Virus record (IMG/VR): IMGVR_UViG_3300030450_003412
Location: 1 to 33,022 of that record
DNA from: a virus
Reading direction: 5' to 3' (one strand)
DNA length: 33,022 nucleotides
This document shows positions 611-8,538 of the stretch, piece by piece. How positions within the stretch are numbered: position 1 is the first letter of the stretch; each line of letters starts with the position of its first letter. The notes under the pieces are model-generated. The model worked only from the letters and a program-made list of their open reading frames with translations. It was not told the origin of the DNA and did no database searches. The position numbers were made by a program, and so were the translations under genes.

Positions 611-687
611 TGGTAGCAGGCGAGGGAGTCGAACCCTCCGATATCCGGGTTATGAGCCCAGCGAGACACCGTTTCTCCATGCCTGCA
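611..687 (-). tRNA. tRNA-Met(CAT) with initiator-like features
   Basis: A 77-nt cloverleaf with encoded CCA (611-613). The acceptor TGCAGGC (687-681) pairs with GCCTGCT (621-615) except for a U-U mismatch at position 1-72. The D stem is GAGA/TCTC with A11-U24. The anticodon stem is CTGGG/CCCGG around CTCATAA (anticodon CAT). The T arm is GAGGG-TTCGACT-CCCTC. The mispaired 1-72, A11-U24 and three consecutive G-C pairs under the anticodon loop are the hallmarks of bacterial initiator tRNA. Three bases instead of two join acceptor and D stems, so the fold is slightly irregular. It lies directly 3' of the large structured RNA and was probably cut from the same transcript. Confidence 0.85.
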
Positions 688-1425: not shown

Positions 1426-1671
1426 TCAGGCGGCCTCTCCAGATCGTTCCGCCGGCAACCCGTCAGTAGGATTCGGGTAGATGTCCGGGCGGAGCTCGTG
1501 AGGAGTGACCTGCCAGTCAGACCCTTCACAAATGGACAGCGCTCGCTTCGGCGAAATGGGGCGGATCCCATGAACCATTTGGTAAAGGTATGCAGGGGCC
1601 ACACCGATATGCTTTGCGAAATCGGAGCGGCCGCCCGGAGGCAATTGATTTAGGAAAGTTGAGAGTTTCAT
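1426..1671 (-). CDS. Cro-like / YdaS-type HTH regulator (81 aa)
   Basis: A small DNA-binding protein, MKLSTFLNQLPPGGRSDFAKHIGV..., with a helix-turn-helix at about residues 13-35 (RSDFAKHIGVAPAYLYQMVHG) followed by ISPKRALSICEGSDW, the pattern of YdaS/Cro-type regulators. It is transcribed divergently from the repressor across the operator region, as cro is from cI in lambda, so it is presumably the lytic-phase repressor of the immunity promoter. The ATG at 1671 is preferred over an upstream in-frame start because the upstream one would place promoter and operators inside the gene. It is the first gene of the transcript that continues into the large RNA, tRNA and rusA. A small hairpin (1409-1414/1420-1425) abuts the stop codon. 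Confidence 0.8.
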   Translation of the reverse strand: MKLSTFLNQLPPGGRSDFAKHIGVAPAYLYQMVHGIRPISPKRALSICEGSDWQVTPHELRPDIYPNPTDGLPAERSGEAA

Positions 1672-1678
1672 GAACGGA

Positions 1679-1707
1679 AATGTAGCTTTTGCTATATCTA
1701 ACGTCAA
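1679..1707 (-). promoter_or_regulatory. PR-like promoter for the Cro-like gene
   Basis: On the minus strand TTGACG (1707-1702) is followed after 17 bp by TACATT (1684-1679), a good sigma-70 match just upstream of the cro-like gene. Operator 1 lies over the spacer and -10, in nearly the same place relative to the -35 as operator 5 in the promoter at 4037, so bound repressor should block it. Confidence 0.7.
1682..1695. promoter_or_regulatory. Repressor operator 1
   Basis: GTAGC-TTTT-GCTAT is one of five copies of the dyad ATAGC-N4-GCTAT in the window. It overlaps the -10 of the leftward promoter, the role of OR1 in lambda. Confidence 0.65.
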
Positions 1708-1720
1708 TAGCCAATGCGAT
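1707..1720. promoter_or_regulatory. Repressor operator 2
   Basis: ATAGC-CAAT-GCGAT starts 25 bp after operator 1. It lies over the expected -35 of the repressor's own promoter, which has no good -35 sequence. This is the position of OR2 in lambda, where bound repressor activates PRM. Confidence 0.6.
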
Positions 1721-1738
1721 ATTAGCAGCCGCTATACT
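1710..1738 (+). promoter_or_regulatory. PRM-like promoter, probably giving a leaderless mRNA
   Basis: TATACT (1733-1738) is a strong -10; 17 bp upstream there is only GCCAAT, a poor -35. The transcript would start about seven bases later, at or next to the repressor ATG at 1745, and no ribosome binding site precedes that ATG. Lambda cI made from PRM is leaderless in the same way. Confidence 0.55.
1722..1735. promoter_or_regulatory. Repressor operator 3
   Basis: TTAGC-AGCC-GCTAT starts 15 bp after operator 2 and overlaps the -10 of the repressor promoter, matching OR3 in lambda (autorepression or Cro binding). Confidence 0.6.
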
Positions 1739-1744
1739 CGCCCT

Positions 1745-2158
1745 ATGAATAGACGAGAAGCGCTGAAGCGCTTGATTGACGAAAGATTCGAAGGGAAGCA
1801 GGCCGACTTCGCCAGAGCGATAAATAGGTCTCCGTCTCTCGTTTGGCAGTGCCTCAGCGGTCACCGGAATATAGGAGAGAAGCTCGCACGTGAGATTGAG
1901 AGCAAGCTTCGACTCAAAAAAGGGTGGCTCGACACCGATTCGAACAACTTCGATCCTTCCGGAAAACCGCCTGAACCTGTTTCCGATAATCCGCCAGCAA
2001 AGGTTCCGCCTGAATTTTCCGCACTTTTATCAAAGGCCACGCCTCGGTCTTACAAGCAGCTGATGCAGATCGCCGAAGCTGCAGCGGATGGGCGCCTGAC
2101 TGACGCTGATATCAATCTACTCACCCAGATCGCCAATAGGATCGCAGCAAAGGAGTAA
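1745..2158 (+). CDS. CI-like phage repressor without peptidase domain (137 aa)
   Basis: The N-terminal 60 residues form an HTH domain (MNRREALKRLIDERF; GKQADFARAINRSPSLVWQCLSG; EKLAREIESKL), followed by a Pro-rich linker and a C-terminal helical segment (about 95-137) ending LTDADINLLTQIANRIAAKE. Full lambda-type repressors have about 200-240 residues with an S24 self-cleaving domain; that domain is absent, so RecA-stimulated self-cleavage is unlikely. The start at 1745 is chosen over an in-frame ATG at 1670, which would read through the operators. It heads a compact operon with the kinase (4-nt gap) and the 290-aa protein. It is presumed to bind the five ATAGC-N4-GCTAT sites. Confidence 0.8.
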   Translation: MNRREALKRLIDERFEGKQADFARAINRSPSLVWQCLSGHRNIGEKLAREIESKLRLKKGWLDTDSNNFDPSGKPPEPVSDNPPAKVPPEFSALLSKATPRSYKQLMQIAEAAADGRLTDADINLLTQIANRIAAKE

Positions 2159-2162
2159 GGCT

Positions 2163-2912
2163 ATGCAGCCTATTGGGTTTGCGACCCTGTATACCGAGCC
2201 ACGCCGTCTTGAAGGGCTGGATAATGTCTCAGAGGTATGGGTTGCCGACGCCCTCACACACGAGGGTGACCTGCGCCTGTACGTCAAGAAAACCACCAAA
2301 GAGGAGATCCTGGCGGAATGTCTGGCGTCCCTGCTGGCGGCAGAGCTGGGATTGCCAGTCAGCAGAGCTTTTATAGTTCAGGATCCGGGCGATCTGCTTG
2401 GCGGCGGTTATTTCGCGGGAAGTGAGGACGCAGGCGCACCTTCCATCAAACAGTGGCTGAATCGCCACGACCCCGTTGTCGTCCAAATGCTTTCCAACTG
2501 GGACAAACTGCATGAAGTAGCGTTATTCGACGAGTGGATAGCCAACCCGGACAGGCATGGTGGCAATCTATTGTGGGGCGGGGAGGATAACTGGGTGCTG
2601 ATTGATCACGCCCTATCCCTCTGGTCGACACTCAGGAAGCCAGACGCAGATCTACCATGCGAGAATATCCTGGCTGGCTGCATCAGAGAATGGGAGGGCG
2701 ATTTAGGCCCGGCGAGAATGCACAGAAATAGCGGCCCGTTCGCGGCCAGGTGCAGGCAGATAGATCCGGAAGAGATCCAAATTGCCTCTCAAAGTGAACA
2801 TATTGGAATGTATGAGCGGTGCCGGGATACGCTATCATCATTGGAAAAGCGACTTTCCAAGATGCCGGCATTGCTTGCCAGGCACGGTAACCAACTGGGT
2901 CTTCTACCATGA
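2163..2912 (+). CDS. HipA-like protein kinase (249 aa)
   Basis: Related to the HipA-like kinase family. The key elements are visible: a nucleotide-binding Lys pair in RLYVKK (about 42-43), a helix with Glu in EILAECLASLLAAELGLPV (about 48-66), the catalytic loop NPDRHGGN (128-135) and the metal-binding segment WVLIDH (144-149). It lacks the large N-terminal lobe of classical HipA (about 440 residues) and resembles the short 'HipA family kinase' proteins of about 250 residues. HipA itself phosphorylates a tRNA synthetase and is held by the HTH partner HipB; here an HTH protein gene also sits directly upstream, but that one looks like the phage repressor. It overlaps the next gene by 4 nt (ATGA). 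Expression from the immunity promoter implies activity in lysogens. The target is unknown. Confidence 0.72.
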   Translation: MQPIGFATLYTEPRRLEGLDNVSEVWVADALTHEGDLRLYVKKTTKEEILAECLASLLAAELGLPVSRAFIVQDPGDLLGGGYFAGSEDAGAPSIKQWLNRHDPVVVQMLSNWDKLHEVALFDEWIANPDRHGGNLLWGGEDNWVLIDHALSLWSTLRKPDADLPCENILAGCIREWEGDLGPARMHRNSGPFAARCRQIDPEEIQIASQSEHIGMYERCRDTLSSLEKRLSKMPALLARHGNQLGLLP

Positions 2913-3781
2913 CTGCCAAAAGCTCTCCATTTCCAGAGCTACCACAATACAAGGCCGAAGGTATGGCCGTATTCATGGAGCCTATAGCTGGCTCCGTAGA
3001 ACGATTGTGCGTGGCAGTGGCAGCGCAAGGAGTAGATCGCGCCTATCAGGTCGTTCCGGTTATACGCGAATCCACAGCCAAGTGTATGCTAGGCCATGCG
3101 GGGCCGGGCTTTCTGGAGATGGTTAACCTGGTTATTAATAGCCTGACCTGCCATCTGGAAACCGGAGCGCCAATGAAGACATGGCGGCCTCCGATGACTG
3201 GAGTTTATCCCGGCGAAGCTAGGCCCGGGCAGGTTGAAGACCTGACCATGATGCTTCGCACAACGGCAAGGAATAGCGCCTTTCTCAGCCGGATGGCAGA
3301 CTTTACCGCCGATGACGATGTCGAGGTTACGGTTTCCGATCGCTGGCTGACCCAGGTGAAAGAGGCCATGGCGGAAGAGCACCCAGAGCTGGTGCGTAAC
3401 TTCAGCAGGAAGTTGCAGCTGTACACCGGTGGATCCCCCACGACCTTCGACTACGTGGGCGGCAACTACGTGGCCCAGCTTTCGCGGATTGTGCCAGGCA
3501 ATGGTCTGTCCACATACAATCGAATCGCCAAGTCAAAAATGTGGGAGCTCATCTCTCTGAGAGACAAGGGGCATACCGGGCTGTTCCAGGTCGAGAACTT
3601 CGAGCTGATCCTGTATCGGCCGGGCAAGAACGATCCCAGCTTCAGCGAAAGCGACATCAATCGAGTTTACGAAGTATTTCATGAGCTCGAGGAAGAAGCT
3701 GATCAGCAGGAGCTGCGAGTGCACGGAGTGCAAAGCCCGGAAGGTGCGGTGCGGCACATCCTCAATGGCGAAGCGGCCTGA
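2909..3781 (+). CDS. Unknown protein translationally coupled to the kinase (290 aa)
   Basis: I do not recognise this protein. It is soluble in character, with no signal peptide or membrane segment, and mixed alpha/beta: an N-terminal stretch with EPIAGSVERLCVAVAAQG (about 24-41), a middle part around TARNSAFLSRMADF, a conserved-looking YTGGSPTTFDYVGGNYVAQLSRI segment, and an acidic C-terminal helix (ELEEEADQQELRVHGV). Its start overlaps the kinase stop (ATGA), so the two are almost certainly made together. Short HipA-like kinases are often paired with a DUF3037 protein; the ERLCVAVA stretch might be a distant relative of that domain, but this is only a guess. Its presence in the lysogenic operon suggests a role in lysogeny control or in exclusion of other phages. 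Confidence 0.7.
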   Translation: MTAKSSPFPELPQYKAEGMAVFMEPIAGSVERLCVAVAAQGVDRAYQVVPVIRESTAKCMLGHAGPGFLEMVNLVINSLTCHLETGAPMKTWRPPMTGVYPGEARPGQVEDLTMMLRTTARNSAFLSRMADFTADDDVEVTVSDRWLTQVKEAMAEEHPELVRNFSRKLQLYTGGSPTTFDYVGGNYVAQLSRIVPGNGLSTYNRIAKSKMWELISLRDKGHTGLFQVENFELILYRPGKNDPSFSESDINRVYEVFHELEEEADQQELRVHGVQSPEGAVRHILNGEAA

Positions 3782-3822
3782 CCAAGCTTCCATCTCCCGA
3801 CTCTTCGTAAGCGAAAGGCTGT

Positions 3823-3847
3823 CAGGGCGCCAACGTTCCGCGCCCTG
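3823..3847 (+). terminator. GC-rich hairpin after the immunity operon
   Basis: An 8-bp perfect stem with a 9-nt loop, 42 bases after the stop of the 290-aa gene. No U-run follows, so intrinsic termination is doubtful; it may be a 3'-end stabiliser or a Rho-dependent end. Confidence 0.35.
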
Positions 3848-4023
3848 CTGCAATCACGGATAGGCTCCCCCTTTCGGTAAGGCATCTCAGATTTCCTGCA
3901 AGCTTTCTTATTCTCGTAATCCGTCGCGAAAACATTAACTCACCTTCCAAATAGATCTGCAGCGATTATCTAGGGCTTTATGACGCGCCATTTTCCGGGC
4001 TCAGAAAACGGTTAATAAAAAAT

Positions 4024-4037
4024 ATAGCAAAAGCTGT
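4024..4037. promoter_or_regulatory. Repressor operator 4
   Basis: ATAGC-AAAA-GCTGT matches the operators at 1682-1735 and abuts the -35 of the early promoter. Confidence 0.6.
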
Positions 4038-4066
4038 TGACCAATAAATATAGCTGTTGCTATTGT
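4037..4066 (+). promoter_or_regulatory. PL-like early promoter
   Basis: TTGACC (4037-4042) with TATTGT (4061-4066) at 18-bp spacing, or CTATTG at 17 bp. It drives the plus-strand operon from 4099. Operator 5 covers spacer and -10 and operator 4 abuts the -35, so it should be tightly repressed in the lysogen. Confidence 0.65.
4050..4063. promoter_or_regulatory. Repressor operator 5
   Basis: ATAGC-TGTT-GCTAT is a perfect dyad, the best match to the consensus. It starts 26 bp after operator 4, close to the 25-bp spacing of operators 1 and 2. Confidence 0.65.
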
Positions 4067-4098
4067 TTGCCCATAACGTTGATCAGGGAGACAACAAA

Positions 4099-4488
4099 AT
4101 GGGTCGCAGACAGAAACCAACTTACCCCCGAATGGAAGTAGAGCTGGCGGACGCCACGCTGCTGCCACCTCGCCGTGCCGAAGTCGTCGTTCTGGCGGCC
4201 CGCTCAATGAGCACAAAGGCCATTGCCCGCAAGCTAGGCATTTCTCCAGCCACTGTTGAGTGGCACCTGGATGAAGCCAAGGACCAGTTCCACGCCCTGA
4301 CTCGGCTGGATCTGGTTTCCCAGGGCTGGATGCAGGGCCTGTTCCGGGCCCGGATGCTTGCCTGGATGCTTGTTGCTTTCTCAGCGCTGCCGGCAATGCG
4401 CAGCCGACCCACACCAATGACCGGTACACGTCCGCCAGCCGTGCGCAGCGTGATTGGCCGTACCGCGATCCGCGAATTCCGTGCTTAA
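4099..4488 (+). CDS. LuxR-type HTH protein (129 aa), first early gene
   Basis: Residues 22-72 form a LuxR/GerE-type DNA-binding domain: LPPRRAEVVVLAARSMSTKAIARKLGIS then the recognition helix SPATVEWHLDEAKDQF. There is no receiver or autoinducer domain. A hydrophobic stretch (GLFRARMLAWMLVAFSALPAM, 80-100) and a basic Pro-rich tail follow. The ATG at 4099 is preceded by GGGAG; an upstream in-frame start would lie in the promoter. As the first gene under the operator-controlled promoter it probably acts as an early regulator, comparable in position to lambda N, but no RNA-binding or antitermination motif is visible. Confidence 0.65.
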   Translation: MGRRQKPTYPRMEVELADATLLPPRRAEVVVLAARSMSTKAIARKLGISPATVEWHLDEAKDQFHALTRLDLVSQGWMQGLFRARMLAWMLVAFSALPAMRSRPTPMTGTRPPAVRSVIGRTAIREFRA

Positions 4489-4501
4489 CCAGGAGACCAC
4501 C

Positions 4502-4699
4502 ATGGCAACGCTGACTATCGAACTTCCGGAAAAGGTTACCCAGGGCCAAATGATGGAGGCGCTGGCCTCGCTCGGCTGTGAGCTCCGGCTTTCCAGCGAT
4601 GGCAGGAACTACAAGGCCGTGCCGCGTGAGCAGAGCAACGTGGTCCGGATGCCGGCGAGGGTCCGGGAGGTCCGCCAGCCGGGGCCAGGTGTCGCGTGA
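4502..4699 (+). CDS. Small hypothetical protein (65 aa)
   Basis: Unrecognised. It begins MATLTIELPEKVTQGQMMEAL, an amphipathic strand-helix start, followed by a segment with RNYKAVPREQSN and a basic tail. The ATG at 4502 follows AGGAG with good spacing. It sits 13 bases after the LuxR-type gene and its stop overlaps a GTG of the next small gene. Probably a small early regulatory protein; function unknown. Confidence 0.5.
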   Translation: MATLTIELPEKVTQGQMMEALASLGCELRLSSDGRNYKAVPREQSNVVRMPARVREVRQPGPGVA

Positions 4700-4701
4700 A
4701 C

Positions 4702-4944
4702 ATGGACGGGGTGGCTCCGGAGCCGTTCGCAGTGGCTGCCGCCGCGATCGCGATCTGGGTGCTGGCCCTGATTATCGAAACGACCAAAGCAAGAGGAAAA
4801 AAGGATGTTGATTCTGACAAGGCGCACCGGAGAGACGATCGTCATCGAGACCCCGAGCGGGGAAGTGGTGGAGGTCACCGTTCTGGGGAACAACGGCCCG
4901 CAAATTCGCATGGGCGTTACCGCGCCAAAGCACACAAGCATTGA
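4702..4944 (+). CDS. Possible small single-pass membrane protein (up to 80 aa)
   Basis: The first 30 residues contain one clear membrane helix ([16 protein letters not shown], about 10-25) followed by basic residues. A GTG at 4696 overlaps the previous stop; the ATG at 4702 is the alternative start. The second half overlaps csrA in another frame for about 140 nt and is low in complexity ([15 protein letters not shown]), so only the membrane part is convincing. It may be a small membrane peptide whose tail is incidental, or not a gene at all. Confidence 0.4.
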
Positions 4945-4993
4945 CCGTGAAGAAATCTACAAGCGGAAGAAGGCGGAGGCCAGTCATGGCTGA
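4805..4993 (+). CDS. csrA: CsrA/RsmA-family RNA-binding regulator
   Basis: A 62-residue CsrA homologue beginning [15 protein letters not shown] and ending ...[21 protein letters not shown], which matches the host family nearly throughout. CsrA dimers bind GGA motifs in mRNA leaders and block or stabilise translation. The RNA-contacting elements are present: the N-terminal MLILTRR strand and the Arg of DREEIYKR (equivalent to R44). A few extra residues (TPSGEVVE) lengthen the loop after the first strands compared with E. coli CsrA. The start follows AAGAGGAAAAAAGG. It overlaps the next gene by 8 nt. A phage-borne copy may redirect host carbon and motility regulation or control phage mRNAs. Confidence 0.93.
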
Positions 4994-5315
4994 GTGCTAT
5001 GCCCACGAGGTGTTCGGGAATCTGTCCTGCTTTGCAGGAACCCCGGACCAGGTGAAATCGGCACTGGCTAACCAGGTAGGTGACGACATGGTCGACTGGG
5101 GCAGGGTGGTACCGCTCCAGGTGGAGACAGCCAAGTCCCGACACGCTGACGAGCTCTACCAGGTGCTCCGGGATCTCACCTCAATGGCAAAGCTAGGTGT
5201 TCCGATTTCATGCATCAACACATACCTGGCAGCGATCCGGAACGCGGAACAGCTGCTGGAGAAAGTCGACAACGAATCCACGGAGGATTCCATCCATGAA
5301 AAACAAACTGACTGA
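4986..5315 (+). CDS. Hypothetical early protein (109 aa)
   Basis: Unrecognised. The sequence [31 protein letters not shown] suggests a small alpha/beta fold; the C-terminal half is helical ([31 protein letters not shown]). The ATG at 4986 overlaps the csrA stop by 8 nt, so it is co-translated with csrA. Its 3' end overlaps the following gene by 20 nt. Confidence 0.6.
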
Positions 5316-5517
5316 CCTGAATAACCATCTTTTTGCCCAGCTCGAGCGGCTGAATGACGAAAGCTTGAAGGGCCAGCTCCTCGAGGAGGAGATAGAGCGC
5401 AGCAAGGCTATTACTGGCGTGAGCAAAGAGGTCGTCTCGAACGCCAGGCTGGTCCTGGATGCTGAGCGCTACAAGCGCGAGCACGGCATGACCAACGGTC
5501 CAAAGATGTTGGAGTGA
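5296..5517 (+). CDS. Small conserved phage protein (73 aa)
   Basis: All-helical protein [61 protein letters not shown] recall this pattern (DLNxHLFxQLERL...EEExxRxKAxxxVxxxVxxNAxL) from small early proteins of many proteobacterial temperate phages, always without known function. The ATG at 5296 overlaps the end of the previous gene; the downstream HNH gene follows after 3 bases. Confidence 0.7.
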   Translation: MKNKLTDLNNHLFAQLERLNDESLKGQLLEEEIERSKAITGVSKEVVSNARLVLDAERYKREHGMTNGPKMLE

Positions 5518-5520
5518 GTC

Positions 5521-6144
5521 ATGGCCACCTGGAATGCGCAACGGGATGAATGGCTGCGATCGCTATACCCCGAGACCAATAACAGGACGATCGCCAAAGT
5601 GATGGGCTGCTCCTATAGCGCCATCAAGAATCGGGCGCAGACGTTGGGTCTGAAAAAGTCTCCGGAATATCTGCAGCGGGAGAAACCAGGCTGCTTTCGG
5701 TCAGGCCAGACCAGCTGGAACAAGGGCCTCAGCTATCAACCAGGTGGCCGCTGCCAAGAGAACCAGTTCAAGCCCGGGCAAAAACCGCAAACGACAGTGC
5801 CGGTTGGCACCGAGTCGGTCGACAAGGATGGCTATCTGAAGCGGAAGGTTCGTGATGATGCGCCTTCAGGAATGAGCCGGAAGAACTGGAAGTTTGTTCA
5901 CGTCCTGAAGTGGGAGGAGTACCACGGCCGTCCGGTACCGCCAAAGCACATTGTCCGATTGAGGGACGGTGATAAGCGGAACTTTTCCAGGGAGAACCTG
6001 GTGCTGGTGAGCATGGCTGAGAACGCGATCCTGAATAAGTTCTTCGCCATGGAGAACCCGCCAGAAGGGAGCTTCGATGTGCTCCACAACCTGGCCAAGA
6101 TCAAGTTGGCAGCGAACAAACGGAAACGGGAGCTGACATGTTGA
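5521..6144 (+). CDS. HNH-type protein with N-terminal HTH (207 aa)
   Basis: Residues about 5-47 form an HTH (NNRTIAKVMGCSYSAIKNRAQTLGL). Two short repeats, CFRSGQTSWNKG and QFKPGQKPQ, precede a core of GTESVDKDGYLKRKV, then WKFVHVLKWEEYHGRPVP, HIVRLRDGDKRNFSRENLVLV, typical of HNH proteins of the homing-endonuclease-like kind (H...W..HG..P..H...DGD..N...NL.L). Known relatives nick or cut DNA; the second motif differs from the common HHxDGN form, so activity is not certain. It overlaps the next gene by 7 nt and is embedded in the operon, so it may be a working phage gene rather than an intruder. Confidence 0.72.
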   Translation: MATWNAQRDEWLRSLYPETNNRTIAKVMGCSYSAIKNRAQTLGLKKSPEYLQREKPGCFRSGQTSWNKGLSYQPGGRCQENQFKPGQKPQTTVPVGTESVDKDGYLKRKVRDDAPSGMSRKNWKFVHVLKWEEYHGRPVPPKHIVRLRDGDKRNFSRENLVLVSMAENAILNKFFAMENPPEGSFDVLHNLAKIKLAANKRKRELTC

Positions 6145-6524
6145 TTGCAAGTTACGAGCAATGGCGCGAAGCGAAGAAGCAGGTCCTCGAGGAAGAAAAC
6201 CCGGAGATCGATTGCGAAGAATGCGGGGGCCTTGGGGAAATCTACGAGCGTTGTCACTGCTGCGGTGGCGAAAAAGAGGAGGAGTGCGACCTCTGTGATG
6301 GTCGCGGGACCATTCGCTATCTCGACTCCTCAAAGCCACGGCCGGGTAATGATCTGGTGGGTCAAAGAGTTTACTTCCAGGAAGTGATCGCAGATCTCAA
6401 GACCTGGTGCACCTACACCAAGCAGGACTTTCTCCAGGTGGCCGGCGGGTTCGTTAGCGAATTCAGAAAGCAACACGGAATCAGGGGGCGTCACGGAATC
6501 ACCAGGTATAAAGGGCGGGCCTAA
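6138..6524 (+). CDS. DnaJ-like zinc-binding protein (128 aa)
   Basis: Cys-rich segment at residues 26-57: CEECGGLGE, then CHCCGG and CDLCDGRGT, spaced like the CxxCxGxG repeats of the DnaJ central zinc domain. There is no J domain, so it is not a chaperone by itself. The remainder is a helical C-terminal part with a basic tail (RKQHGIRGRHGITRYKGRA) suited to nucleic acid binding. Small DnaJ-type zinc-finger proteins are common in phage early operons, role unknown. The gene overlaps its neighbours at both ends (7 nt, then 1 nt). Confidence 0.65.
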   Translation: MLIASYEQWREAKKQVLEEENPEIDCEECGGLGEIYERCHCCGGEKEEECDLCDGRGTIRYLDSSKPRPGNDLVGQRVYFQEVIADLKTWCTYTKQDFLQVAGGFVSEFRKQHGIRGRHGITRYKGRA

Positions 6525-6784
6525 TGGACGGAAATACAGCCAGAACCATCCTCAGTCTGAACGATCAGCGGGACAAGGCAGAGGCCAGCAAGCGGGAAGC
6601 GCTCCTGCAGCTGGCCGAAATGAAGCACGAGCTCCAGATTCTCAGGCACATGAAGCGGGAGATCTTGGTCTGCCTGCTCGATCGACGGCTGCCCCATTAC
6701 CAGCGTGACGGATCATCACCCAGCTGCCACCACACAGTCAGCCGAATAGCGAGGATTGTACGCAGTGCACACGCAGGTAACTGA
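6524..6784 (+). CDS. Hypothetical coiled-coil protein (86 aa)
   Basis: The N-terminal 55 residues are one long helix (NDQRDKAEASKREALLQLAEMKHELQILRHMKREIL), a likely coiled coil; the tail has scattered Cys and His. The ATG overlaps the previous stop (TAATG). The 3' end overlaps the next gene. Function unknown. Confidence 0.5.
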   Translation: MDGNTARTILSLNDQRDKAEASKREALLQLAEMKHELQILRHMKREILVCLLDRRLPHYQRDGSSPSCHHTVSRIARIVRSAHAGN

Positions 6785-6956
6785 TCTGAGCCACGAGGAT
6801 CGCGCTGAGGCGATTATCGAACTCATCGAGAGCACCGGCATGGCCTATGCCCATTCCAGCGGCTGTGTGGTGCTGAAGGACGGAACATGGCTCCAGCCTG
6901 AGCAGTGGCAAGTGTGGGTGGAGCATCTGAAGAATGAGGAGAGGGAAGCATGCTGA
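6765..6956 (+). CDS. Hypothetical protein (63 aa, GTG start)
   Basis: Small acidic protein with DLSHEDRAEAIIELIESTGMAYAH and KDGTWLQPEQWQVWVEHLKNEER. I place the start at GTG 6765 because GAGGA (6751-6755) lies at good spacing; a TTG at 6756 in the same frame is too close to it. It overlaps the neighbours on both sides, as usual in this operon. Function unknown. Confidence 0.5.
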   Translation: MHTQVTDLSHEDRAEAIIELIESTGMAYAHSSGCVVLKDGTWLQPEQWQVWVEHLKNEEREAC

Positions 6957-7177
6957 CACAAGAGCAACGCGATGAGGCGGTCAAGCTCCTGGGCACGTCC
7001 GCAGACGACTGTGAGCAGAACATCATGCGCAGTGTCGAGATCAACCCGTATTCGGGACTGATGACCGTGGCCAGCACTCTGGTACATGCCAACCAGACAA
7101 ATCGGCTGAACAAGTCTCACCGCCAGGCGTTGATGAAGGCCGGCAGGAAAGCTTTAAAGGATCTGGGAGATATTTGA
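6950..7177 (+). CDS. Hypothetical protein (75 aa)
   Basis: Helical protein MLTQEQRDEAVKLLGTSADD... ending HRQALMKAGRKALKDLGDI. The ATG at 6950 lies inside the end of the previous gene, preceded by GAGAGGGAAGC. Its stop overlaps the start of the Gp37/Gp68 gene (TGATG). Function unknown. Confidence 0.55.
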   Translation: MLTQEQRDEAVKLLGTSADDCEQNIMRSVEINPYSGLMTVASTLVHANQTNRLNKSHRQALMKAGRKALKDLGDI

Positions 7178-8226
7178 TGGGACAGAAAACTGGAATTGAG
7201 TGGACCGAATCCACCTGGAACCCGATACGTGGCTGCTCCCGTGTCAGCGAAGGCTGTCGGAACTGCTATGCGGAAACCGTTGCCAATCGATTCAAGGGCC
7301 CCGGTGAACCCTATGAGGGTCTGATCGCCAAGGGCGACCAGTGGAATGGCGAGGTGAAAATGATCGAGCACAAGCTGGATGAGCCCTGCCGGTGGAGCAA
7401 GCCGCGGATGATCTTCGTGAACAGCATGAGTGACCTGTTTCATCCCTCAGTTCCGTTTGAAACCATTGCGGCCGTTTTCGGAATCATGGCCGCCGCCTCG
7501 TGGCATACCTTCCAGGTGCTCACCAAACGCCCGGAACGTGCTTCTCAATTCTTCTCCTGGTTGGAGGCTCACCCGGAGCGGTCCAACTTCGATACACAGA
7601 AGCTTCAAAGCACCTACCCGGGCGCAGCGTGGCAGCCGTTCCTATTGGCTCAAGCTGCGGCCGACATTTTACCAAGTGAGGGTGCTGGCCTGAGAGTCGA
7701 TCTAAAAGGCAAATGGCCTCTCCCCAATCTCTGGCTTGGCGTTAGCGTGGAGGATCAGGAAACCGCAGACGAGCGCGTTCCTTTGTTGCTGAATGCCCCA
7801 GCTGCTGTTAGGTGGATCTCTGCAGAGCCGTTGCTTGGCGCGGTCGATCTCACACGGATCAATGGTTGTCCTACTGACGATCGATATATGGATAGCGGTT
7901 GTGTCGATGCCCTCCGCTGCACGCACCCGTCGAGAGTTGATTGGGTAGTTGTTGGAGGCGAGTCCGGTCCAGGGGCCAGGCCAATGCACCCTGAATGGGC
8001 TCGCGGCCTTCGCGATCAGTGCAAATTGGCGGGTGTGCCATTCCTTTTTAAGCAGTGGGGCGAGTTTGCCCCCTCTCCTGACGGTGGCTTGCCCGATGAT
8101 CTGCCAGAGTCGGCCGGTCATTACTTTGATGAGCCACACCCTCCAGGAAAGACCTGGCGATTTGGAAAGAAGCGTTCCGGGAGACTTCTGGATGGCCGCA
8201 AATGGGATGAGTATCCGGAGGGTTGA
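7177..8226 (+). CDS. Phage Gp37/Gp68 family protein (DUF5131), 349 aa
   Basis: Typical family start GIEWTESTWNPIRGC with a Cys triplet C20-x6-C27-x2-C30 (GCSRVSEGCRNCYAE), then FVNSMSDLFH, VLTKRPERA, WLGVSVEDQETADERVPLL, RWISAEPLLG, DWVVVGGESGPGARPM and FLFKQWGEF, all in the expected order. The family resembles radical-SAM proteins, but the biochemical role in phages is not settled; nucleic acid or protein modification has been proposed. The length is somewhat larger than the common 250-300 because of an insertion around residues 120-180 (HPERSNFDTQKLQ...EGAGLRVDLKGK). It is the largest early gene. The ATG at 7177 overlaps the preceding stop. Confidence 0.9.
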   Translation: MGQKTGIEWTESTWNPIRGCSRVSEGCRNCYAETVANRFKGPGEPYEGLIAKGDQWNGEVKMIEHKLDEPCRWSKPRMIFVNSMSDLFHPSVPFETIAAVFGIMAAASWHTFQVLTKRPERASQFFSWLEAHPERSNFDTQKLQSTYPGAAWQPFLLAQAAADILPSEGAGLRVDLKGKWPLPNLWLGVSVEDQETADERVPLLLNAPAAVRWISAEPLLGAVDLTRINGCPTDDRYMDSGCVDALRCTHPSRVDWVVVGGESGPGARPMHPEWARGLRDQCKLAGVPFLFKQWGEFAPSPDGGLPDDLPESAGHYFDEPHPPGKTWRFGKKRSGRLLDGRKWDEYPEG

Positions 8227-8229
8227 TTG

Positions 8230-8538
8230 ATGGCCATGACAGCAACAGAGCGAAAGCGCCGCCAGCGTGAAAGGGAAAAGCACCTGGACATCAAGCCCTT
8301 CACGATGCAGTTGGCTGCCAACGAGAGAGCAGCGATCGAAGAGGCGGCAAACCTCCGAGAGTTCGAAGATCAGACTGAGTACATCCTCGCGCTGGTTTAT
8401 AAGGATCGTGACATGTCACGAAAAGAAAATGTGTGTAGCTATCCCGAATGCCGGTGCCCGTTTGATATGGGACCAGATGGTAAATGCCTGGCTGGGAAGC
8501 CGAGAGCGGAGGAGGTCGACAATGGCGCTGCCATATGA
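8230..8538 (+). CDS. Small phage protein with basic N-terminus (102 aa)
   Basis: Begins MAMTATERKRRQREREKHLDIKPFTMQL, then a helical AANERAAIEEAANLREFEDQTEYILALVYKDRD. This resembles small ribbon-helix-helix-like phage proteins (TERKRRQRERE...KPFTxxL), so DNA binding is plausible. A second part has four Cys (CSYPECRCPFDMGPDGKC), a possible zinc site. ATG at 8230 or 8236 are both possible. The palindromic site at 8406-8421 lies inside this gene. Confidence 0.6.
   Translation: MAMTATERKRRQREREKHLDIKPFTMQLAANERAAIEEAANLREFEDQTEYILALVYKDRDMSRKENVCSYPECRCPFDMGPDGKCLAGKPRAEEVDNGAAI
8406..8421. promoter_or_regulatory. 16-bp perfect palindrome, copy 2
   Basis: TCGTGACATGTCACGA shares the exact 14-bp core CGTGACATGTCACG with the palindrome at 474-491. 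Here the core encodes RDMSR, in the other copy NVTCHV, so the identity is not due to shared protein sequence. Confidence 0.4.

Follow-up and report, generated by a model that had tools for sequence, protein, structure and literature searches.

An immunity operon carrying a kinase gene and a partner gene

We analyzed a 33-kb virus record of IMG/VR (IMGVR_UViG_3300030450_003412; 33,022 nt), referred to below as the window. Its immunity region contains a three-gene operon encoding a repressor, a kinase, and a partner protein; a Cro-like gene of the YdaS type, read leftward, lies on one side of this operon, and an early operon, read rightward, lies on the other. The Cro-like gene (1426–1671, minus strand) is divergent from the repressor gene and encodes an 81-residue regulator of the YdaS family (PF15943, 41 bits against a cut-off of 30); YdaS acts as a Cro analogue in prophage CP-933P according to PMC8630535. 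The first gene of the operon (1745–2158, plus strand) encodes a short CI-like repressor of 137 residues that matches PHROG 5736, a transcriptional regulator family (E 4e-15). A Pfam search of this protein gave no match above the cut-off, with only YdaS (E 0.007) and HTH_68 (E 0.036) below it, and no S24 peptidase domain was seen. A TATACT box is positioned 5 nt upstream of the repressor ATG, which suggests that the repressor message is leaderless.

The repressor gene ends 4 nt upstream of the gene for the kinase (2163–2912, plus strand; 249 residues, the proposed toxin), so that repressor, kinase, and partner are likely to form one operon, and the AAGGAG ribosome-binding site of the kinase spans the repressor stop codon. 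A weak 5-pair terminator-like match was found at 2158–2171 (7 such matches occur in the region, compared with 2.4 expected). The kinase gene and the gene for the partner (2909–3781, plus strand; 290 residues, the proposed HipD-like antitoxin) overlap by the 4 bp of ATGA, in which the partner ATG begins at 2909 and the kinase TGA occupies 2910–2912. Both reading frames are present as an earlier note on this DNA had described them.

A pattern search identified three operator-like palindromes, TATAGCNNNNGCTA, between the cro and repressor genes at 1681–1696, 1706–1721, and 1721–1736 (together 1681–1736), along with an OL-like repeat pair ahead of the next rightward operon at 4023–4038 and 4049–4064 (together 4023–4064). 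When up to 2 mismatches were allowed, the window contained 27 matches to TATAGCNNNNGCTA versus 12.7 expected, a number reached in 0 of 100 shuffles, and all matches with 0–1 mismatch fell in one or the other of the two clusters. In all, five operator-like palindromes flank the repressor-kinase-partner operon. The order in phage lambda is OR, cI, rexA, rexB, OL. Judged from its sequence, the window has the lambda layout with the kinase and partner in the place of the rex genes. Elsewhere in the window, a tRNA-Met gene (611–687, minus strand; detected by ARAGORN) lies near the replication side of the immunity region, a small ORF at 4805–4993 resembles the carbon storage regulator CsrA (the relative in Marinobacter sp. 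M3C is so annotated), and a 350-residue ORF at 7174–8226 presumably resembles the phage Gp37/Gp68 (DUF5131) family.

The kinase retains its catalytic residues and is paired with the same partner family elsewhere

The kinase matched HipA_2 (PF20613) in the Pfam search with 38.9 bits versus a cut-off of 27, and this was the only HipA-type model that it matched. Across 64 relatives, the β3 lysine K42 is kept in 63 and D130 in all, and E52, D123, N128, R131, N135, D148, and H149 are each likewise kept in 64 of 64; these residues have established roles as kinase motifs. Because the catalytic residues are kept across the relatives, the enzyme is probably active. These observations bear out the earlier description of a short HipA-like kinase with an intact-looking active site, although the residues that had been singled out in that description fared differently: K42 and D130 are conserved, whereas K43 is not, being kept in just 16 of the 64 proteins. 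A search of solved structures by sequence returned nothing convincing for the kinase (PI4-kinase beta at E 0.02) and nothing for the partner. With PADLOC, the kinase weakly matched PDC-M66A (E 2.3e-6, 25 bits) and the partner matched no family, so the pair does not qualify as a PDC-M66 system.

Scans of viral contigs with the single kinase or partner sequence found no relatives; a search of viral contigs with the kinase alignment identified 41. A member of the partner family is encoded directly downstream of the kinase in 39 of these 41 viral relatives (the other two run off their contigs) and adjoins the kinase in 26 of 27 genomic (bacterial) relatives, counts that include redundant loci from near-identical phages. 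The one genomic exception, from an Actinomycetota MAG (L075), is closer to PI3/PI4 kinases. The neighbor search suggested by the earlier note thus shows that the same gene pair recurs elsewhere more often than chance would allow. Named carriers include a plasmid-prophage of Marinobacter sp. M3C, Alteromonas phage P24, Acinetobacter phage qsb1, Rahnella plasmid PRA1, and Cupriavidus plasmid pHG1. In 41 of 74 pairs, the overlap between the two genes is 4 or 8 bp, when the start codon of the partner is taken as that nearest to the kinase stop. Among 369 gammaproteobacterial genomes, the partner family was present in 4, including the centre genome that was chosen for having one, and all 4 copies were beside a kinase; DUF3037 was present in 11 of the same 369 genomes.

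The surroundings of the pair vary. Directly upstream on the same strand we found 53 genes (longest-ORF guesses from the 64 loci, related phages included), of which 30 contain HTH_3 and 8 contain an S24 peptidase domain; the remaining 11 loci have either no upstream gene or one on the opposite strand. In Acinetobacter phage qsb1 the pair is located among tail genes and not beside a repressor, copies on plasmids PRA1 and pHG1 lack a repressor directly upstream, and some chromosomal copies sit among housekeeping genes. The pHG1 copy lies ∼1.6 kb downstream of a Gabija system (GajA and GajB; 2405–5528 of locus L006). PADLOC analysis of 101 neighbor proteins (a subset of 129, from 16 loci picked by eye as not being behind a window-type phage repressor) detected Gabija, BREX, type I restriction, Septu, Lamassu, SoFic, and DpdF at E < 1e-25, a tally of defense neighbors that stands without a matched background.

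The partner model has the two-domain fold of HipD

The partner matched PHROG 21150 (function unknown) with an E value of 4e-41, and it had no match among Pfam, NCBIfam, or PADLOC families. The DUF3037 profile (PF11236) matched neither the window partner nor the 6 family members scanned at E values up to 10, and the partner HMM likewise found no HipD at E values up to 10. Profile-profile comparison of the partner with HipD gave a score of 33.0 (local P 9e-4), whereas 50 column shuffles reached 23.7 at most and the reversed profile 14.7; when another HipD alignment was used, the score was 15.7 (P 0.22). Since such weak scores vary with the alignment used, the assignment of the partner as HipD-like rests on the structure search.

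The AlphaFold model of the partner (47 aligned sequences, pLDDT 91.1) contains two domains. For comparison, we used an AlphaFold model (19 sequences, pLDDT 88.9) of the DUF3037-type protein that is encoded beside a HipA_2-type kinase in a viral contig (L092). The order of strands and helices is alike in the two models, with HipD having one extra helix (residues 88–102). In BFVD searches, the top two structures for the partner were the top two for the HipD model in reversed order, both over the full length, with E values of 1.6e-22/2.2e-8 and 9.9e-11/8.2e-9 and the next matches at E > 1e-4; the shared matches have modest TM-scores of 0.29–0.62 and rmsd values of 6–15. On the basis of the element order and these reciprocal top matches, the modeled partner has the two-domain HipD fold. 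No weight was given to the lack of named HipA or RexA folds among the structures listed. The protein that the earlier note called unknown can accordingly be placed by its model.

The predicted N-terminal, DUF3037-like domain comprises residues 14–123 (2948–3277, plus strand) and carries the motif YxEPIxxSGER; the PHROG 21150 partners and the HipD family share a P-x3-[S/T]-G-E motif, which is located in the first hairpin. The C-terminal domain (residues 142–289; 3332–3775, plus strand) was assigned by structure search to a PD-(D/E)XK/ERCC1-central fold without conserved catalytic residues (Z 9.8, rmsd 3.0, and 109 aligned residues versus 2a1i), and the C-terminal domains of both the partner and HipD models resemble restriction enzymes and ERCC1-type folds. 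An active nuclease was set aside, as no D, E, or K column is ≥70% conserved within residues 140–290.

A 186-residue protein encoded by a plasmid of Pseudomonas aeruginosa PA83 (7806–8366 of locus L007) corresponds to the N-terminal half of the partner alone (E 6.9e-42, positions 7–130), and the same half occurs alone on two other Pseudomonas plasmids. No kinase was found within the 16-kb stretch around the PA83 gene. This half may be an orphan antitoxin able to block the copies of the host, and it could serve as counter-defense.

Relation to HipAD and other two-gene systems

HipAD (DS-6), consisting of a HipA-like kinase and a DUF3037 protein, is a validated anti-phage toxin-antitoxin pair according to two reports (PMC13092281, PMC12548924). 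The DefensePredictor study (PMC13092281) describes loss of defense in a DS-6A catalytic mutant and an AlphaFold3 prediction of a kinase-partner complex, and the Retron-Sda1 study (PMC12548924) describes a requirement of the HipAD kinase against phage Bas51 and toxicity upon deletion of the DUF3037 gene. The window pair resembles HipAD in kinase family (a HipA_2 match with an intact active site), gene order, overlap with the downstream partner gene, the sizes of both proteins, and the two-domain partner fold. Escherichia phage PhiR5_1 has annotated genes for cI, a "HipA toxin," and a "HipD antitoxin" in succession with a 4-bp overlap; its pair directly follows cI, a layout identical to that of the window. 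In contrast, the window partner belongs to PHROG 21150 and that of HipAD to PHROG 5137, and the window partner lacks both a DUF3037 profile match and the helix found at HipD residues 88–102. The kinases differ as well. In the kinase tree, kinases with PHROG 21150 partners (64 rows so labeled, including L014 and L018, whose contigs end before the partner) and those with DUF3037 partners fell on separate sides, with one change each and support of 84/90 and 100/98, so that the window-type kinases form a separate clade. Because the partner has no DUF3037 profile match and the kinases separate by partner type, we classify the pair as HipAD-like and not as a true HipAD member. The reading we favor is that of a lineage sister to HipAD that occupies the rexAB position, with an operator cluster on either side.

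The likeness to RexAB is one of gene position: two genes are found between cI and an OL-type operator, where the operators are predicted from sequence. As in lambda RexAB and RexABpp of Pseudomonas putida, the two genes follow a CI-type repressor, and PMC12894663 describes co-expression and an exclusion role for the Rex proteins; the window encodes a kinase and a soluble partner, whereas that report describes RexA as DNA-binding and RexBpp as harmful to the membrane. The paaR2-paaA2-parE2 locus of prophage CP-933P (YdaS/YdaT) also places a toxin-antitoxin pair under a CI-like repressor that faces the YdaS Cro analogue (PMC8630535), but its ParE-type toxin and small antitoxin are unrelated to the kinase and the HipD fold. 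HipBA and HipBST share with the window a HipA-type Ser/Thr kinase toxin and an upstream HTH gene. They differ in that the window kinase has 249 residues and matches no classical HipA model, the HTH protein is a phage repressor whose gene stands opposite a Cro-type gene, and a downstream protein of 290 residues that lacks an HTH is the proposed antitoxin; furthermore, no HipS-like gene fits into the 4-nt gap between repressor and kinase. In the literature covered on HipA-type kinases, HipAD, and DUF3037, with the main HipAD paper outside this scope, we did not find the PHROG 21150 lineage described.

A cassette swap between near-identical phages

A relative of the window phage (L118, contig G347:C59) is 90–92% identical to the window over 6–833, 1091–1440, and 4016–6957, and it also matches 1460–1518. 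No match was found between 1518 and 4016, and the block at 1519–4015, containing the Cro, repressor, kinase, and partner genes, was exchanged as a unit. In the replacement, the Cro-like gene differs in its N-terminal part, the repressor joins the same tail to another DNA-binding domain, and the kinase and partner belong to PHROG 11186 and PHROG 27972, respectively, the partner having a weakly DUF3037-like start (E 0.068). The operator-like repeats of L118, read by eye, are variants of those of the window at both places. Pseudomonas phage D14P has an arrangement like the L118 replacement. The L118 and D14P cassettes share with that of the window their position, the motif of the kinase, and the DUF3037-like beginning of the partner, and they differ by having other kinase and partner families. 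Cassettes of this second kind (PHROG 11186 kinase, PHROG 14695/27972 partner) fill the same slot at 3281–6444 of L118, where they represent the allelic swap, and at 3662–5947 of L117. At least three kinase-partner lineages therefore fill the slot behind the repressor, with partners of PHROG 5137, 21150, and 14695/27972. A HicB-like antitoxin gene is present at the end of the swapped L118 cassette (5799–6206, minus strand), and HicA/HicB are encoded nearby in the M3C relative.

The joint exchange of repressor, operators, and kinase-partner alleles in one cassette would be compatible with an immunity-type-specific weapon, in which each immunity group has its own kinase set, with heteroimmune relatives that escape the repressor setting it off through their early proteins. 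We hold this possibility to be doubtful.

The repressor tail and a possible role in induction

The C-terminal tail of the window repressor (1988–2155) reads KATPRSxxxLxxIxxAAADGRLTDADINLLxxIA, and a tail of the form KATPR[ST]...GRL[TS]xxD is common to phage repressors with unrelated DNA-binding domains. Two surveys for the tail, covering 369 and 390 genomes, gave hits in 2 and 3 genomes, respectively. Four of the hits were HTH proteins, and the remaining one was a false match of the RecF type (L123), which was dropped. A kinase was next door in just 1 of the 4 HTH-type tail proteins from the two surveys. As the tail is found without an adjoining kinase, we set it aside as a mark of the kinase.

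The earlier note had suggested that the kinase could phosphorylate the repressor and that a new induction mechanism would fit this setting. According to such a scheme, the kinase would act on the switch of its own phage, e.g., by phosphorylating the KATPR[ST] tail, thereby coupling induction to a cell signal, and the partner would regulate the kinase. The kinase does share its operon with a repressor in which no S24 self-cleavage domain was seen; homology to the Marinobacter M3C phage begins at window position 1985, in the repressor tail, and extends through kinase and partner with differing DNA-binding domains; and phage D14P and L118 keep the tail beside other kinases. However, the repressors of L116, L121, and L122 have the tail without an adjoining kinase, and other relatives of the kinase are beside S24-type repressors (8 of the 53 upstream genes), among tail genes, or at plasmid sites where no repressor is directly upstream. 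With the kinase found beside unrelated repressors or none, the proposed mechanism found no support, and we deem it improbable.

Discussion

The other option offered by the earlier note, exclusion or abortive infection, is well supported by the kinship to HipAD, the PhiR5_1 layout, and the location of relatives close to Gabija and other defense genes. We consider it likely that the pair is a two-component, toxin-antitoxin type anti-phage module of a HipAD sister lineage in the rexAB position of a temperate phage immunity operon. We infer the toxicity of the kinase, its neutralization by the partner, the trigger, the target, and protection against phage. In a lysogen, the repressor promoter would yield repressor, kinase, and partner together, and the partner, with its DUF3037-like domain and dead nuclease fold, would bind the kinase and hold it off. 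Infection by another phage would cause the partner to be displaced, titrated, or lost, and the freed kinase would phosphorylate an essential host (or phage) protein such that growth stops before the intruder multiplies. The prophage and the sister cells would survive.

A function mainly in stability, i.e., in addiction, with cells penalized for losing the prophage and with defense being incidental, would suit the toxin-antitoxin architecture and the additional occurrence of the pair on large plasmids. Several genomes nevertheless have the pair close to defense systems, its nearest studied relative is a defense system, and an integrated prophage has little need of addiction, so that such a function has perhaps an outside chance of being the main one. 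Still further down the scale is a role in shielding the incoming or induced phage (counter-defense or host take-over, e.g., by phosphorylation of a host defense protein), for although the pair is phage-borne and lies among tail genes away from a repressor in Acinetobacter phage qsb1, the operon shared with the repressor leads one to expect that the pair is expressed in lysogens, there are chromosomal and plasmid copies, and the HipAD precedent is one of defense.

As an exclusion module, the pair would extend the validated HipAD defense to a second, sequence-divergent lineage that is missed by Pfam and PADLOC, and this HipAD-like lineage recurs behind phage repressors. The analysis also names a candidate antitoxin fold, together with an orphan half on Pseudomonas plasmids, and the natural cassette swap between near-identical phages provides a test case for the matching of kinase allele and immunity type.
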